From contig CAMBBS010000015.1 in assembly GCA_945863875.1 (NCBI GenBank), positions 1-64,000 on the forward strand: a stretch of DNA of 64,000 nucleotides, written 5' to 3'. Numbering within the stretch: the stretch's first letter is position 1; the number at the start of each line of letters is the position of its first letter. The DNA is from Desulfopila aestuarii DSM 18488 (GTDB lineage Bacteria > Desulfobacterota > Desulfobulbia > Desulfobulbales > Desulfocapsaceae). The notes beneath the pieces are model-generated. The model was not told the DNA's origin and did not search any database. It worked only from the letters and a program-made list of their open reading frames with translations. Below are positions 24,576-32,227 of this stretch, piece after piece. The position numbers were made by a program, and so were the translations under genes.

Positions 24576-25928
24576 TCAGCCATTTTTCTTGTCATCAAAA
24601 TACTTCTTCGTTTCCGAAACAACAACCGGGGTCAAAAACAGCAGACCTATAAGGTTTGGAATGGCCATCAAACCATTCATCGTATCGGAAAGATTCCAGA
24701 CGAAACTGAGTTTGGCCATCGCACCCACGCCGACAAAGATGACAAAAGTTATACGGTAGGGCATTACCGCCTTTACCCCGAAAAGATATTCAATCGACTT
24801 TTCACCATAATAACACCAGCCAAGAATGGTCGAGTAGGCAAAGAGAATGATGCCGATCGACACCACATGGGCTCCCCCGGGCATTTCCGCGGCAAAGGCC
24901 ATGGTCGTCAAGGCGGCACCGGTTGAACCATTGGACCAGAGGCCGCTGAGGATGAGAACCAGTCCGGTCATGGTACAGACGATGATGGTATCGATAAAGG
25001 TCTGTGTCATGGAAACCAGGGCCTGAGTAATCGGGCTTTTCGTCTGGGCTGCAGCTGCAGCGATGGGGGCGCTCCCCAGACCGGATTCGTTGGAGAACAC
25101 CCCGCGGGCCACGCCCATCCTGATGGCTAGCATGATGCTTGCCCCGGCAAAACCACCAACGGCGGCGGTGGGATTAAAGGCCTGCTTGACGATAAAGACC
25201 AAGGCGGCCGGAACTTCGGTTATATTGGCAAGAATGATATACATCGCACCGGAGACATAAAAAACTATCATTATCGGCACGAGAATACCGGTCACCTTGC
25301 CGATTTTTTTGATGCCACCCAGCACGACGGCAGCGGTACAGGCCATGAGGATTATTCCGGTGACCATATGGGGAATTTTGTAGGTTGTGGCCACTGCGTC
25401 GGCAACCGAATTGGATTGCACCATGTTGCCGATGCCAAAGGCAGCAACCGAGGCAAAAACAGCAAAAACAGTGCCAAGCCAGGGCATCTTCAAGCCTTGC
25501 GAGATATAGTACATCGGGCCACCACTCATCTCGCCGTACTCATCGACAACCCGGTATTTCACCGCCAGAACCGCCTCGGCATACTTGGTGGCCATGCCGA
25601 CAAGCCCGGTAATCCACATCCAGAATAAGGCACCCGGTCCACCGACGGCTATGGCGGTGGCCACGCCGGCAATATTACCGGTACCGACGGTTGCCGACAG
25701 GGCGGTCATCAGGGCCTGAAAATGGGTAATATCACCCGGCTCATCGGTGTCCTCTTTCCTTTTCACCAAGGCCAGGTAGAGAGCATAGCCAAGTTTTCTG
25801 AACTGGAGACCACGCAGCGCAAAAGTCAGCCAGAAGCCGGTTCCAACCAACAGTATCAGCATTGGCGGTCCCCAGGCAAAAGCGCCTATTTTTCCCACGA
25901 CCATATCCAGTGTACTCACAAAATCCAT
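24576..25928 (-). CDS. Sodium:alanine symporter (AGCS family)
   Basis: 450 residues with about 10-11 membrane helices. The AGCS signature [30 protein letters not shown] (about 94-123) and [20 protein letters not shown] are present, as is [19 protein letters not shown] further on. These proteins take up alanine or glycine with Na+ (or H+). It is the second gene after ald, 80 bp downstream on the same strand, so the pair imports and deaminates alanine. Confidence 0.9.
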
Positions 25929-26008: not shown

Positions 26009-27121
26009 TCACAGCACCTCTGTCACCGGTGTATACTCGAGGCTAAAGGCATCGGCCACCCCTTTATAGGTGACCTTCCCCTGGACTATATTCAGACCGG
26101 TCTTTACCCCATGGTTGTCCTGGGCGGCCTTTTTCCAGCCCTTATTGGCAATCTGCACCGCATAGGGAAGAGTTGCATTGGTCAACGCCATGGTCGAGGT
26201 AACCGGAACCGCACCGGGCATATTGGCGACACAGTAGTGAATAACCCCATCGATCACATAGACCGGATCCTGATGGGTGGTTGCTTTTGACGTTTCGAAA
26301 CATCCGCCCTGATCAATGGCCACATCGACGATGACCGCCCCTTTTTTCATCAACTTGAGCATCTCGCGAGTGACAAGTTTAGGAGCCTTGGTACCGGCAA
26401 CCAGCACGGCACCGATAACCACATCGGCATCGAGAACCAGCTCACGAAGAATGGTCGGGTTGCTCATCATCGGGAAACAGTTTTTCGGCATAACCTCGGA
26501 GAGATAGCGGAGCCGGTCGAGGTTCGTATCGAGCAGATACACTTTTGCCCCAAGGCCGCAAGCCATCTGGGCCGCATTGGTGCCGACGACACCGCCTCCG
26601 ATAACCACAACACTCGCAGGAGCGACCCCGGTCACTCCACCTAACAGTATTCCCCGACCACCGTAGAAGCGCTCAAGATATTTTGCCCCTTCCTGCATGG
26701 ACATCCGCCCGGCGACCTCACTCATCGGCGTAAGCAGAGGCAGATCACCCTTGGCGCCTTCCACCGTCTCATAGGCGATGGCGATGGATTTATTTTTGAC
26801 AAAAGCACGGGTCAGCTGCTCATCGGGGGCAAAATGAAAATAGGTGAAAACAATCTGTCCTTCGCGGACCAGATCATATTCGGACGGCTGGGGCTCTTTG
26901 ACATGCATGACCATGTCGCACTGCGAGTAGATTTCCGCCGGGGTGCCGACAATTTTGGCCCCCGCGGCAAGATAGGCATCATCGGCAAAACCACTGCCTC
27001 CACCGGCCGACTTCTCCACCATGAGCGCGTGGCCGTTGGCCACCATAATCTCAACGCCGGTCGGCGTCATGGCCACTCGATTTTCCGCTACTTTGATCTC
27101 TTTTAAAATTCCAACTTTCAT
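26009..27121 (-). CDS. ald: Alanine dehydrogenase
   Basis: 370 residues, the normal length. Conserved parts: MKVGILKEIKVAENRVAMTP, VEKSAGGGSGFADDAY, MHVKEPQPSEYD (catalytic Lys/His area) and the NAD-binding VVIGGGVVGTNAAQMACGLGA. It converts L-alanine, NAD+ and water to pyruvate, NH4+ and NADH. The NADH can feed the nuo complex encoded nearby. It is the first gene behind the -24/-12 promoter at 27231-27246. Confidence 0.96.
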   Translation of the reverse strand: MKVGILKEIKVAENRVAMTPTGVEIMVANGHALMVEKSAGGGSGFADDAYLAAGAKIVGTPAEIYSQCDMVMHVKEPQPSEYDLVREGQIVFTYFHFAPDEQLTRAFVKNKSIAIAYETVEGAKGDLPLLTPMSEVAGRMSMQEGAKYLERFYGGRGILLGGVTGVAPASVVVIGGGVVGTNAAQMACGLGAKVYLLDTNLDRLRYLSEVMPKNCFPMMSNPTILRELVLDADVVIGAVLVAGTKAPKLVTREMLKLMKKGAVIVDVAIDQGGCFETSKATTHQDPVYVIDGVIHYCVANMPGAVPVTSTMALTNATLPYAVQIANKGWKKAAQDNHGVKTGLNIVQGKVTYKGVADAFSLEYTPVTEVL

Positions 27122-27453: not shown

Positions 27454-29079
27454 TCAAAATACACCTGGTGTATTTTCGTTCCACCGGTCCTTTTTGTTTC
27501 CGCACGACAGCTGGTACTTGTCAATCTTCTTTAACAATGCCGTGTGGGAAAGGCCAAGCATTTTTGCTGCCTGGCGGATGCTTGGGGTTGCATTAAGCGT
27601 TTCCATCAGGATTTTGGTCTCGAGGCTGCCGATGTGTCTTTTCAAGGATCCGCCGCCGTTTTCAGAAAGGACGGCGCAGTTACGGTTAAAGCGATGTAAC
27701 GTTTCATGGCTTGGCCGGATGGCCTCCCCGCCAATATGGTCGGTATCACTGAGCACCGAGGCCCGTTCAATCATGTTTTTTAACTCCCGGACATTTCCAG
27801 GCCAGGTATAATTGTACAGTTTGGCCATGGCATCGGTACCGATGGTCTGCCCCGGCTTGCCAAGTTTTCGATTAAACTGTCGGAGAAAATCTTTGGCGAG
27901 AAGGGAGATATCCATGAGTCTTTCTCTCAGAGGCGGTATCTGAACGGTCAGGACGTTGATGCGGTAAAACAGATCTTCACGAAAGCGCTTTTCCTGCACC
28001 ATTTCCCGGAGATTCTTGTTCGTTGCCGTAATAACCCGGGCGTTCACCGGTATCTCCTCAAAACCTCCGATTCGGCGAACCAGCCCATCCTGCAGCACGC
28101 GGAGAATTTTCGCCTGCGGCCCCGGGGGCATATCGCCGATTTCATCGAGAAATATCGTCCCATCGCCCGCTGCCTCAAAAAGTCCCGGTTTGCCCTTTTT
28201 TCGCGCCCCGGTGAAGGCACCGTCGACATAACCGAACAGTTCACTTTCAATGAGCGCTTCCGGAAGAGCTGCACAGTTTATCGGAATAAAAGGTCCTGGC
28301 CGGCCACTCTCAAAATGCAGGGCTCTGGCAAAAAGTTCTTTGCCGGTGCCGCTTTCACCGGTAATGGAGACAATGGTCCCGGTGTCGGCAATTTTCCGGG
28401 CAAAGGTAATGAGATTTTTCATAGCCGGACTCTCACCGAGGAAATCATCAAAGGTCACGGAGAGAGGGGTCGAGACGGCATCGACCATCTCTTTCACCTC
28501 TTTCAGGTTGTTGATTAACAGAACCGCACCGACAAAATTGCCCCGAGAGTCATTGATCGGTTTGGCGGAGCCATAGAACTCAACCCTGCCGGTGCTGGTG
28601 ACCAGTGATTTCCTTCTGCTGACCGGGATCCTTTTCTGCAGACAGTCAAGCAGAATGGAATCCTTGGGACTGATTTCCGAGATGTGCCGATCGATAATAC
28701 TTTCGTAGGTCAGGCCAAGGGTACGGCAGGCAACGTTGTTAATTGTATTGATCATGCCCCTGGCATCCACGGAGATAATGCCCTCACTCATCCCGTCAAA
28801 GAGGGTGCGAAACCACCGCTGCCTTCTTTCCTGCGGCAGGTGCCGCAATTCGACCTGACTTTCGATCTGCGGCAGGGTGGCAAACAGGGCGAGCAGGGAG
28901 GCCTTGTCCAGATTGTGCTCTTGCTTTTCGATCTCAATGGAAATCTTGGCGAAGCCGTTTTTCTGCTCCACCTCCATCGCGACAATATTCAGGCTCTGAC
29001 CACACATCAGACGAGCGATATCGTAGACGATGCCGATCCTGTCTTTAAAAAGAAGCTCAAACTTCAAATTTCCATCCAT
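27454..29079 (-). CDS. TyrR-type sigma-54-dependent activator (ACT-PAS-AAA+-HTH)
   Basis: 541 residues from ATG 29079, which has AGGTGA upstream; a TTG at 29097 is an alternative. Domains: ACT about 4-76 (LLFKDRIGIVYDIARLM), PAS about 88-190, AAA+ about 210-440 with Walker A GESGTGKE, GAFTGA (287-292), Walker B FLDEIGD and LRERLMDI, and a C-terminal helix-turn-helix (AAKMLGLSHTALLKKIDKY). The intact GAFTGA means it can contact sigma-54, unlike E. coli TyrR. ACT domains sense amino acids, so alanine or a related ligand is likely. The next operon downstream is ald-symporter with a -24/-12 promoter. A 21-bp palindrome (27456-27476) overlaps the stop codon. Confidence 0.9.
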   Translation of the reverse strand: MDGNLKFELLFKDRIGIVYDIARLMCGQSLNIVAMEVEQKNGFAKISIEIEKQEHNLDKASLLALFATLPQIESQVELRHLPQERRQRWFRTLFDGMSEGIISVDARGMINTINNVACRTLGLTYESIIDRHISEISPKDSILLDCLQKRIPVSRRKSLVTSTGRVEFYGSAKPINDSRGNFVGAVLLINNLKEVKEMVDAVSTPLSVTFDDFLGESPAMKNLITFARKIADTGTIVSITGESGTGKELFARALHFESGRPGPFIPINCAALPEALIESELFGYVDGAFTGARKKGKPGLFEAAGDGTIFLDEIGDMPPGPQAKILRVLQDGLVRRIGGFEEIPVNARVITATNKNLREMVQEKRFREDLFYRINVLTVQIPPLRERLMDISLLAKDFLRQFNRKLGKPGQTIGTDAMAKLYNYTWPGNVRELKNMIERASVLSDTDHIGGEAIRPSHETLHRFNRNCAVLSENGGGSLKRHIGSLETKILMETLNATPSIRQAAKMLGLSHTALLKKIDKYQLSCGNKKDRWNENTPGVF

Positions 29080-29584
29080 GTTTTCACCTGTCGACAAGGA
29101 GCTGTCAGTCAGCTCTGCACCATATCTTACCCCTCACTTGGCAGAAAAACGAGTTTAAATTGTCCCGGCCGGTCTGGCCGGTGCTGCACCCCAGGGCCCC
29201 GGGCCTACGGGCAAACATGCTGAGAAGAAAGCGTGTCCAAATATTTGCAAAAGTGTAAAGCAAACCGACAAGGTCAGACGTGCCGACGCCTTGCCTGTCC
29301 GGAGAGCAACGGCCAGAAATGTCCAAACTGCGGAGACAGTCGTCGAACAGCACCGGATTTGCTTAGGGGTCGATTTTTCGGCATGATTCATGCTACAGTA
29401 AATAGAACAAACTGGTAAAAACCTCAATCTTCGGATGGCTAAGCCGTTGTCAACACATAACCCGGCCGATGGGAAACCCGGAACGGCATAAGGTGCCGTA
29501 ACGAAATGGGTTACCATGGCCTGGTTATTTGGTAACGGCTCCTAAGCTGAAAACTTCATCTGCGTCGTTACTGCAACCATAGCT
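29080..29584. other. Divergent intergenic region with inverted repeats
   Basis: About 500 bp between the TyrR-like gene (minus) and the fusion-protein gene (plus). ORFs here lack coding character. Near the plus-strand gene are ACGGCA-N5-TGCCGT (29483-29499) and GTTACCA-N13-TGGTAAC (29510-29536). They could be operators or leader hairpins of the gene at 29585. I found no good -24/-12 element and no recognised riboswitch. Confidence 0.5.
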
Positions 29585-32227
29585 ATGCTCGAACAGGATA
29601 GGCTTAGACAGAGCCTCTATACGTCTGAACTTTTTAAAGACCTTGACGCCGGGGTGGTGGGACAGCTCGTCGATGCCGCCCATTGGCAAATCGTCGAACA
29701 GGGTCACTATGTCTACCGGCAGGGCGAGAATAACCGCCGTTTTTATATCGTTGCCGGGGGAGAAGTGGAGCTGACCATGAACGTGGCGGACGACGGCCAA
29801 CTGATCGTCAGCCATATTGGGCCGGGAGGCCACTTCGGCGAAACATCACTGCTGACCAACCGCACGAACTGCATCAATGCCCGGGCCCTCACCCGCCTTA
29901 CCCTGGTGTATTTTGATGCCGAAACTTTCCACACGCTGCTCCAGGCCAACCATGGCATAGAGCATCAGCTCACTCTTGCCCTGGCCAATCGCCTGCGGGT
30001 GTCCTTTCATGACCATGCAGACTCCCTGAGAAAAATGCAGCAGAGCCCGATGGGTGCCGATCACAATCTCGATGCGACTTTTTTTGCCGATTTGCCGTCA
30101 TCCCATTTACCAGAAAAAGTTTCCCTGAGCAAAGACGGCAAGATTCGCCTGCCGGAATCAACCATTTTACGCCAGATCATGAAGGCAGTCAGCCGATTCG
30201 CTGACAACCTCGAACCGATCCTGATCACCGGTGAGGCCGGGACTGGGCGGCGAATGGTTGCCCAGGAAATCCATCGGGCCAGCGCCTGCAAAAATGGTCC
30301 CTACACCGAAATCGATATCCGCAGCATCGACCCGGAGCAACTGGAGGGAGAGCTTTTCGGCTATAAACGGGAGGCATTCGCCTTCTCGCAAATCGAGCAA
30401 CTCGGTGTTTTCGAGCGGTTACATGGCGGGACGGTGGTTCTTTATAATGCCGAACACCTGGAACCGGACGTCCAGCGGCAGCTGGTCACACTCATCAGAA
30501 AAACGTCCCTCACCATGACCGGCAACGGGAGCGACGTATTACTGCATTCCCGAATCATCTTCATCTGTACCGACACCCTGCGCCGGCAGGACGGTCATAA
30601 CCGCCTGCTGCCGACGCTCTATGCCCTGGTGGCCAAGCAGCATTTCCAGGCAGCTCCGCTGCGGATGCATCGCCGGGATATCCCACGTCTGGTGCAGTAT
30701 TACCTCAAGCGTTACAGCCGGCAGTATGGCAAGACCATCAAGCAGGTGGATGACCAGACCCTGGGCATGTTCATGAACTACGACTGGCCGGGCAATCTGA
30801 CGGAAATGACCAGCGTCATCCAGCGGGCGGTGATTCTCGGCAAAAACAACGAGCCCCTCAATGATCAGGTACTTTTGGGCATACCGAAGTCCGAAGGCAA
30901 ATGGGAATTCAATCTGCTGCGGCTGCCGGCCATCCGGGCATTGCTCACCAGCCGGTTCTTTCCGGTGCTGCCGCGGATGATAGTCGGCGTTTTTCTCGCC
31001 TTTATTCTCGCCGCGCTGTTCCTTGGTCCAGTCACCGCCGAAAAAAATATCGGCTTGACTTTGAGCTGGGTGGTCGGCTGGCCGCTGCTCATATTCACCT
31101 TCTTTTTCCTGGCCCGGACCTGGTGCAGTGTCTGCGGTTTGTCCGTGCCCGGCTGGCTGGCGCAGCACGTCATCAAACCGGAACGACCAACGCCGCAGTT
31201 CATCAAACAGTATTCCGGCTGGATCATGACCGTGCTGTGCATTTTCCTGTTTTGGCTGGAAACCACCTGGGACGCCTACCATTCCCCCCGGCTCACCGCC
31301 TGGATCATCTCCTCCATCACCCTGGCGGCGTTATTTTTCAGTGTGTTTTTTAAGCGCCGGGTCTGGTGCCGATATCTTTGTCCGCTCGGTGCCCTGAATG
31401 CTTTGTTTTCCATGCCCTCCATCCTGGAACTGAGGGCCAACACGCATATGTGCATGAATCGCTGTACCGATCACCTCTGTTATACCGGTGAGGGCGGGGT
31501 CGCCGGCTGCCCGATGTTCCGCCATCCTTTCCTGGTGGACAACAATCGAGATTGCATCCTGTGCATGCAATGCGTCAAGAACTGCAAGTTGAACTCGATT
31601 CACCTCAACCTTCGCCTCGCTCCCCAGGAGTTATGGAACCAGCAATCGCCGCGTCTTGCCGATAGTTTTCTGGTGGTCAGCCTGGCGGCCATCTTTTTTC
31701 CATTCACCATCAACCAGAACTACCCTGGGGTAATCGACAGCTGGGCCGCTGGTCTGCACAGCCTCGGCTTACCCCATAGCCCACCGCTGACCGCCAGCAT
31801 ACTTTTTTTTACCTGCATTGCCATCTATCTCTGCGGTTACGCCGCCTTGTCGCAGATCATGGCCCGGCTCACCGGCAACAGCTGGAGGGTAACCGCATCA
31901 ATCTTTGGCTACGGCATGATTCCGCTGGTGCTTGGTGCTTTCATGGCCGCGCATCTGGAAATTTTCGTCGGCAGCCTCTGGCTGCTGGCCGACAATGTCA
32001 AAGACCTGATCGGCATGGGCGGGGAGTATACGCCCAGACGGATGATGAGCCATGACGCCACCTTCATTCTTCAGTTCATCACCGTTGCCGGCGGCCTGCT
32101 CGCCTCGCTTTATGCGACCAAGCGCATCATCTCGCGGCTGCTCATGGCTCGGCCTTCGTGGAAGATGTTTATGCCGCCGGCCTTTCTCCTCTGCCTGTCG
32201 GCGGTGGCCTATCTCTGGCTGGGATGA
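29585..32227 (+). CDS. cNMP-binding/degenerate AAA+/NapH-like membrane Fe-S fusion protein
   Basis: 880 residues. Residues 10-140: cyclic-nucleotide-binding fold (YRQGENNRRFYIVAGGEVEL, GGHFGETSLL). Residues 185-430: sigma-54-activator-like AAA+ domain ending in YDWPGNLTEM. It is altered at key sites: Walker A is GEAGTGR with Arg for Lys (222), the GAFTGA position reads EAFAFS, and Walker B DE is replaced (VVLYNAEHL). No HTH follows. From 455 to the end there are several membrane helices with NapH/NosR-like motifs WCSVC (513/516), WCRYLCP (595/599), C623, C627, C632, C642 and CILCMQCVKNC (657-667), enough for two [4Fe-4S] clusters. It is probably an inner-membrane redox protein controlled by the N-terminal part. 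Partners are unknown; it stands alone between divergent and convergent neighbours. Confidence 0.85.
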   Translation: MLEQDRLRQSLYTSELFKDLDAGVVGQLVDAAHWQIVEQGHYVYRQGENNRRFYIVAGGEVELTMNVADDGQLIVSHIGPGGHFGETSLLTNRTNCINARALTRLTLVYFDAETFHTLLQANHGIEHQLTLALANRLRVSFHDHADSLRKMQQSPMGADHNLDATFFADLPSSHLPEKVSLSKDGKIRLPESTILRQIMKAVSRFADNLEPILITGEAGTGRRMVAQEIHRASACKNGPYTEIDIRSIDPEQLEGELFGYKREAFAFSQIEQLGVFERLHGGTVVLYNAEHLEPDVQRQLVTLIRKTSLTMTGNGSDVLLHSRIIFICTDTLRRQDGHNRLLPTLYALVAKQHFQAAPLRMHRRDIPRLVQYYLKRYSRQYGKTIKQVDDQTLGMFMNYDWPGNLTEMTSVIQRAVILGKNNEPLNDQVLLGIPKSEGKWEFNLLRLPAIRALLTSRFFPVLPRMIVGVFLAFILAALFLGPVTAEKNIGLTLSWVVGWPLLIFTFFFLARTWCSVCGLSVPGWLAQHVIKPERPTPQFIKQYSGWIMTVLCIFLFWLETTWDAYHSPRLTAWIISSITLAALFFSVFFKRRVWCRYLCPLGALNALFSMPSILELRANTHMCMNRCTDHLCYTGEGGVAGCPMFRHPFLVDNNRDCILCMQCVKNCKLNSIHLNLRLAPQELWNQQSPRLADSFLVVSLAAIFFPFTINQNYPGVIDSWAAGLHSLGLPHSPPLTASILFFTCIAIYLCGYAALSQIMARLTGNSWRVTASIFGYGMIPLVLGAFMAAHLEIFVGSLWLLADNVKDLIGMGGEYTPRRMMSHDATFILQFITVAGGLLASLYATKRIISRLLMARPSWKMFMPPAFLLCLSAVAYLWLG

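Follow-up and report, generated by a model that had tools for sequence, protein, structure and literature searches.

A predicted membrane iron-sulfur protein of Desulfopila aestuarii that carries a cyclic-nucleotide-binding-like domain and a sigma-54-activator AAA+ domain lacking the catalytic residues

The window analysed here is a stretch of 64,000 nucleotides from the genome of Desulfopila aestuarii DSM 18488 (assembly GCA_945863875.1, contig CAMBBS010000015.1, positions 1 to 64,000 of the forward strand). A single open reading frame (ORF) at 29585-32227 on this strand, correctly located by a first-pass annotation made from the sequence alone, encodes a protein of 880 amino acids (Table 1). 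The annotation described a chain of three parts, namely a domain resembling cyclic-nucleotide (cNMP)-binding domains, an AAA+ domain of the sigma-54-activator type and a membrane part related to NapH and NosR, and this description is upheld by Pfam and fold matches. Pfam identified cNMP_binding at residues 37-122 (E = 7e-17), Sigma54_activat at 192-346 (1e-25), AAA_lid_14 at 360-422 (8e-16) and Fer4_5 at 572-609 (1.5e-7). No helix-turn-helix (HTH) family was found in the protein at E ≤ 1, and the membrane helices come after the lid instead. In the structure predicted by AlphaFold from a 62-sequence alignment (mean predicted local distance difference test score (pLDDT) 77, predicted template modelling score (pTM) 0.55), the AAA+ part resembles NtrC1 and PspF over 231-243 residues (Z 22-23); the N-terminal part resembles CRP-type proteins over ~150 residues (Z 18-20). 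The membrane part alone gave a pLDDT of 83 and a pTM of 0.85, and the iron-sulfur (Fe-S) stretch was modelled with low confidence in part (pLDDT <50 in places). The folding alignments used 61 of the 68 family loci described below, six cut or partial loci (L078, L080, L087, L103, L107 and L110) and one near copy of L050 (L051) being omitted.

The host genome has a second copy of the gene, the product of which is 47% identical over residues 4-874, and 29 of 57 genomes (the host's own included) carry a relative at E ≤ 1e-60 that is nearly full length in each. The first-pass annotation had allowed that the fusion might be an artefact absent from relatives. Because near-full-length relatives occur in many genomes, chance and assembly error are excluded, and a frameshift is likewise rejected given these relatives and the paralogue in the same genome. 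Among the best 80 of 92 stretches confirmed in a pattern scan of genome contigs, which is the sole test of the distribution outside the phylum, 68 are family loci (L047-L114) and 12 are weak NapH-like matches; the closest relative among these 80 shares 81% identity over the membrane part. Fifty of the 68 family loci belong to Desulfobulbaceae, Desulfocapsaceae or their genera (Desulfobulbales in NCBI), the others standing under wider names. The family falls into two groups, A with the window protein and B with the host paralogue. In a tree of the membrane part, which carries a long-branch warning outside these clades, the A clade (20 rows; 100/99) and the B clade (32 rows; 99/98) are joined at 99/78. 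When the two groups were separated by identity in the 57 genomes, group A (at least 54% identity) was found in 14, all 14 of which also have a group B match (partial in G022).

Table 1. Features of the gene and of the encoded protein (positions in the window)
Feature	Position	Strand	Basis
Whole gene: sensor, pseudo-AAA+ and membrane Fe-S module, 880 aa	29585..32227	+	ORF, Pfam, relatives, cysteine conservation
CRP-type cyclic-nucleotide-binding fold, residues 1-140; Asn at the phosphate-cassette Arg position	29585..30004	+	Pfam 37-122; CRP/GlxR Z 18-20
Variable linker, residues 141-190; low identity, low pLDDT in part	30005..30154	+	
AAA+ core of the sigma-54-activator type, lacking catalytic residues; residues 191-358	30155..30658	+	Pfam, fold, motif counts
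Walker A GEAGTGRR: Lys replaced by Arg, glycine-rich loop retained	30230..30253	+	
EAFAFS where GAFTGA is expected, residues 263-268	30371..30388	+	
Tyr-Asn where Walker B Asp-Glu is expected, residues 287-288	30443..30448	+	
AAA+ lid, residues 359-430; Thr406 in place of the sensor II Arg; no HTH after lid	30659..30874	+	
Junction between lid and first membrane helix, conserved; residues 431-460	30875..30964	+	Mean identity: group A 0.72, group B 0.71
Membrane Fe-S module, residues 461-880; ~9 membrane helices	30965..32224	+	
First cysteine motif CX2C (C514, C517)	31124..31135	+	93/93 sequences
Second cysteine motif CX3CP (C595, C599)	31367..31384	+	92/93 sequences
Eight-cysteine stretch C623-C667; two [4Fe-4S] clusters predicted, cytosolic side	31451..31585	+	
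C-terminal membrane helices, residues 691-880	31655..32224	+	

Across the phylum, the membrane module was found at E ≤ 1e-40 in 59 of 395 genomes (the host's own included), with 69 matches in total. The frames are 453-528 aa long for 33 of these and longer than 600 aa for the other 36. The short frames (e.g., L151) represent a stand-alone form of the module, which is widespread in the phylum and matches the NapH models weakly. Among the 34 long frames examined (G196:C18 and G167:C108 were left out), 27 have a dead AAA+ domain, which in L147 is present from the lid onward only, and seven have none, L201, L202 and L206 being judged by eye. Three of these AAA+-less fusions carry other domains by Pfam: cytochrome c in L203, YHS in L204 and cupredoxin/COX2 in L207. 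The fusion of the AAA+ and membrane parts is retained across many families of the phylum.

The first-pass annotation stated that the AAA+ domain lacks the Walker A lysine, the Walker B acids and the GAFTGA loop, and our reading of the motifs (Table 1) confirms this. Both arginine fingers and the sensor II arginine (WPGNLTE as opposed to WPGNVRE), which the annotation had not mentioned, are missing as well. To the 93 sequences left from 116 family sequences after removal of exact duplicates, we added 12 distant copies; as L087 and L147 lack the Walker region, 103 sequences were evaluable, among which near-duplicates remain and one (L110) is truncated, so that the counts below are of sequences and not of independent events. 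The Walker B Asp-Glu pair appeared in none of the 103 (a single D occurs in L045 and L200, a single E in L034), nor did the arginine fingers or GAFTGA, the closest to the latter being GAFTFS in L209. The sensor II arginine is kept only in L131 and L132, and the Walker A lysine position is occupied by K in 58, R in 44 and T in one sequence. As a control, 14 activator loci of the host genome, which were high-scoring matches rather than a random draw and were not picked by motif, all retain the Walker A lysine, the Asp-Glu pair, both fingers and the sensor II arginine; their L1 loop reads GAFTGA or GSFTGA in 12, GSFTGS in one and GAYTGA in one. Relatives with intact ATPase motifs and an HTH would have spoken against the first-pass annotation. 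We sought an intact ATPase among the 103 sequences of the phylum and found none, and an HTH is absent from all 12 family proteins scanned with Pfam. Judged from these motifs, the AAA+ domain is disabled as an ATPase throughout the family. As the glycine-rich loop is retained, the AAA+ part of the window protein may still bind a nucleotide without hydrolysing it.

One could suppose that the domain is merely what remains of a degenerating activator that became joined by chance to a functional membrane protein. The loss of the Walker B pair, the L1 loop and the fingers throughout the family, of the sensor II arginine in 101 of the 103 sequences and of the Walker A lysine in 45 is what decay would leave behind. 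This explanation is nevertheless largely refuted, and we regard it as scarcely credible, since (i) eight of the 10 closest group A pairs have an AAA+ ratio of nonsynonymous to synonymous substitution rates (dN/dS; NG86) of 0.06-0.25, (ii) the gap fraction of the core is 0.018 in group A and 0.000 in group B, (iii) the replacement in group A is itself kept, a loose LYNAE-like pattern fitting all 23 distinct sequences, and (iv) the fusion is held in many families of the phylum. The AAA+ domain is thus mostly under purifying selection in group A, where the linker evolves far faster than the AAA+ part. The low dN/dS together with the kept replacement residues indicates that selection maintains the domain for a purpose other than hydrolysis. 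Conservation is uneven along the protein: in group B the mean identities of the lid and of the junction between the lid and the first membrane helix are 0.71 each, as high as that of the Fe-S part, and that of the core is 0.48, below both the lid and the membrane part; in group A the values are 0.76 for the lid and 0.72 for the junction, compared with 0.79 for the Fe-S part.

The cNMP fold of the N-terminal domain is supported by Pfam as well as by the structural matches to CRP-type proteins. One position corresponds to that of the arginine holding the cyclic phosphate in CRP and PKA. The 32 group B rows have Arg (19), His (9) or Gln (4) at this phosphate-cassette site, and nine of the 10 rows outside groups A and B have Arg. 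Group A is different, as set out below, and is thus altered at two ligand-binding positions, the Walker A lysine and the cyclic-phosphate arginine. The sensor varies among the AAA+ fusions (cNMP, GAF in L129, FHA plus cNMP in L144), and the AAA+ and membrane parts stay. In L134, L209 and L210 an extra N-terminal stretch of ~60 residues precedes the cNMP domain; it appears to resemble MshEN, which binds cyclic di-GMP, although Pfam gave no match.

The annotation had counted at least ten cysteines in the membrane domain. We found 12 that are invariant in all 31 near relatives (residues 514, 517, 595, 599, 623, 627, 632, 642, 657, 660, 663 and 667), and C552 is present in 30 of the 31. The eight-cysteine stretch, the spacing of which is non-classical, occurs in 92 of the 93 sequences, the sole exception to both this and the CX3CP pattern being the truncated L110. 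In the 12 further distant copies, CX2C was found in 11, CX3CP in 11 and the eight-cysteine pattern in eight. Hydropathy suggests about nine membrane helices. With the N-terminus placed inside, the family-mean numbers of Lys plus Arg are 5.7, 3.0, 3.4, 9.0, 2.5 and 3.1 in the putative cytosolic loops and 0.9, 0.5, 1.1 and 2.5 in the loops on the opposite side. All 12 cysteines are therefore predicted, from hydropathy and these positive-inside counts, to face the cytosol.

The reading that we prefer, tentatively and at slightly less than even odds, is that the protein transfers electrons at the membrane through its Fe-S clusters and is gated by a cytosolic signal relayed by the pseudo-AAA+ domain. 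The N-terminal sensor would change its state on a cytosolic signal; the pseudo-AAA+ core and lid, possibly oligomeric and possibly holding a nucleotide without hydrolysis, would relay this change through the conserved lid and junction into the membrane module; and the relay would allow or block the passage of electrons between the two predicted [4Fe-4S] clusters facing the cytosol and either the quinone pool or a partner in the periplasm. That the membrane module occurs by itself, or fused to cytochrome c, YHS or cupredoxin domains, fits a redox module. Since, among the relatives searched, group A occurs only in genomes with group B, the group A protein may be a subunit or a modulator of the group B protein. 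It is attractive to speculate on a new class of ligand-gated membrane redox proteins, in which a retired sigma-54-activator ring serves as the relay, the sensors (cNMP, GAF, FHA) are interchangeable, and the less degraded B and more degraded A proteins possibly form a mixed ring; we consider this wider proposal doubtful. If gating is genuine, a cytosolic sensor would control membrane electron flow post-translationally in sulfate reducers and related bacteria, and a path would be at hand for turning a transcription motor into a non-catalytic relay.

Several observations weigh against gated electron transfer. The eight-cysteine pattern is absent from L181 and L189 and is matched by L199 and L200 only if the spacing is relaxed, indicating that the clusters are not shared by every member of the wider family. 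(L181 and L189 may have lost the Fe-S clusters and yet retained the sensor, the dead AAA+ domain and the membrane part.) Because all of the cysteines are predicted to be cytosolic, no trans-membrane path is visible. No convincing solved relative of the membrane module was found by fold for residues 442-880 (best Foldseek E 0.67; best VIA Z 5.3, over 65 residues only), and the best match in a sequence-profile search (E = 0.012) covers a 16-residue ferredoxin-like stretch. The first cysteine motif is CX2C, whereas NapH, NosR and RdhC have CX3CP. Of the 20 group A rows, only L062 has arginine at the phosphate-cassette site, where the window protein has Asn. The AAA+ dN/dS is ~0.6 in two of the 10 closest group A pairs, both of which involve the divergent L064. 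Finally, no conserved redox partner was recognised beside the group A, group B, stand-alone or distant fusion loci, and the 20 distant fusion loci have no general shared neighbour, an ABC-type ATPase recurring in three of them. No neighbour cluster recurs in more than five of the 21 group A loci, some of which have short flanks. Group B lies directly behind prs in 31 of 37 loci, with leuB-type, rsmG and hisD genes upstream, surroundings (e.g., L017 8184-10820) that are an odd home for a redox protein. The stand-alone form lies behind trp genes in six of 20 loci and has, within ~3 kb in eight of 20, a gene from a cluster represented by a GGDEF protein.

These points bear differently on two proposals of the first-pass annotation. 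That the AAA+ part was repurposed as a regulatory or docking module agrees with its being conserved, catalytically dead and under selection, and docking and gating are not distinguishable here. In contrast, that it controls transmembrane electron flow did not find support, given the predicted cytosolic cysteines, the window protein's lack of Pfam matches to flavin or haem domains and the lack of a conserved redox neighbour.

Alternatively, the protein could be a redox-controlled anti-activator at the membrane, in which the membrane module acts as a redox sensor and the dead AAA+ domain poisons or tethers the rings of genuine sigma-54 activators. NifL restrains NifA and PspA restrains PspF, both by other means. 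The AAA+ core and lid share the activator fold, the residues lost are of the sort expected of a dominant-negative subunit, and the host genome is rich in possible targets, with 53 Sigma54_activat matches, 45 of which are at E ≤ 1e-50. In addition, an NtrC-type regulator recurs in four of the 20 distant fusion loci (L180, L182, L188 and L199; that of L180 confirmed by Pfam). However, an activator lies near only five of the 21 group A loci, which is little given the numbers of activators in these genomes, no partner is consistent, and the AAA+ core is less conserved in group B than the lid and the membrane part. We consequently consider an anti-activator unlikely.

In the window, a regulator at 27454-29097 (-) lies next to the gene. 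It is a PAS-sigma54-HTH activator with an ACT-like N-terminus, and beside it lie two genes for alanine metabolism and uptake, that of an alanine dehydrogenase at 26009-27121 (-) and that of a sodium:alanine symporter at 24576-25928 (-). We rejected it as a partner, as it is not conserved beside group A and is grouped with the alanine genes. This gene group calls to mind the alanine dehydrogenase that a survey of Desulfovibrio vulgaris reports to be under sigma-54 control (PMC4641369). A sigma-54 promoter upstream of the fusion gene was rejected as well: the best site agrees with the consensus at seven of 10 positions, and 20% of single-base shuffles equal it. The consensus is not enriched across the whole window, where the lone perfect TGGCAC-N5-TTGC (25462-25476, -) lies within the symporter gene and is probably due to chance. 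Elsewhere in the host genome, a sigma-54 activator fragment with internal stops (G000:C34:15261-15575) is likely a pseudogene.

Another possibility is that the protein serves in metal or cofactor maintenance, as a CcoG/NosR-type membrane reductase that maintains a metal or an enzyme in the reduced state, the sensor and AAA+ parts being an assembly platform. NosR and CcoG are helpers of copper enzymes, and relatives of the membrane module carry YHS or cupredoxin/COX2 domains. Nevertheless, Pfam gave no metal-binding soluble domain in the window protein and no match to FixG_C or to FMN_bind, the flavin mononucleotide (FMN)-binding domain, at E ≤ 1. This role appears improbable to us, and gating through the pseudo-AAA+ relay remains the reading that we prefer.

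Compared with known systems, the membrane module resembles NapH. At E ≤ 0.001 the NapH models are matched by all 62 members and NosR by 39 of them, which bears out the label "NapH/NosR-like" of the first-pass annotation as a likeness below threshold: the NCBIfam NapH/MauN match of the window protein is at 1.9e-11, and its score of 44-45 bits stays far under the family cut-offs, which are 213 and 234. In common with NapH/MauN (TIGR02163, NF007013), it has membrane helices, paired cysteine motifs and two predicted [4Fe-4S] clusters; it differs in having a cytosolic sensor and an AAA+ domain in front and more helices at the C-terminus. Two CX3CP motifs, as in NapH/MauN, were not found, whereas cysteine sets apparently suited to two [4Fe-4S] clusters were, as far as the cysteines themselves can tell. 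A likeness can be drawn to the cupric reductase CcoG/RdxA/FixG, a membrane polyferredoxin, although the window protein lacks the FixG_C domain of these proteins. One article (PMC5928378) proposes the membrane segments of NapH as a quinol-oxidising domain, and describes NosR/NirI as sharing the membrane module with its cysteine motifs and C-terminal [4Fe-4S] sites, and RdhC (PceC) as sharing the module without the 4Fe-4S motifs. NosR and RdhC carry an exocytoplasmic flavin domain, unlike the window protein, which has no FMN-binding domain.

In the structure of its AAA+ core and lid (Z ~20-23), the protein resembles the sigma-54 activators NtrC1, PspF, NifA, FleQ and VpsR. In contrast to them, the family lacks the Walker B Asp-Glu pair, the arginine fingers and GAFTGA, and the window protein has no HTH and is membrane bound. 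A match to Sigma54_activat is thus not evidence of a transcription regulator, because all 12 family proteins scanned pass its cut-off despite lacking the Walker B pair, the fingers and GAFTGA. According to PMC10274813, the sigma-54 loop has likewise been lost from NtrC of Caulobacter and Rhodobacter, and some activators without GAFTGA regulate sigma-70 promoters without ATP hydrolysis. The latter gives a precedent for a non-canonical regulator of transcription that acts at the membrane through sigma-70. However, the NtrC proteins of Caulobacter and Rhodobacter are transcription factors, whereas membrane helices occupy the place of the HTH in the window protein, and we judge such a role very unlikely. 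Among the 37 activators surveyed in D. vulgaris, two have changes in GAFTGA that might block sigma-54 binding, and the main text of that survey contains none of the terms "4Fe-4S", "cNMP" and "cyclic nucleotide" (PMC4641369). The first-pass annotation knew of no characterised protein of this design, and we found no published description of the architecture in the open-access literature, where most subscription papers are missing. Set beside these systems, the component parts of the protein are of known kinds, whereas their combination is not a known one.

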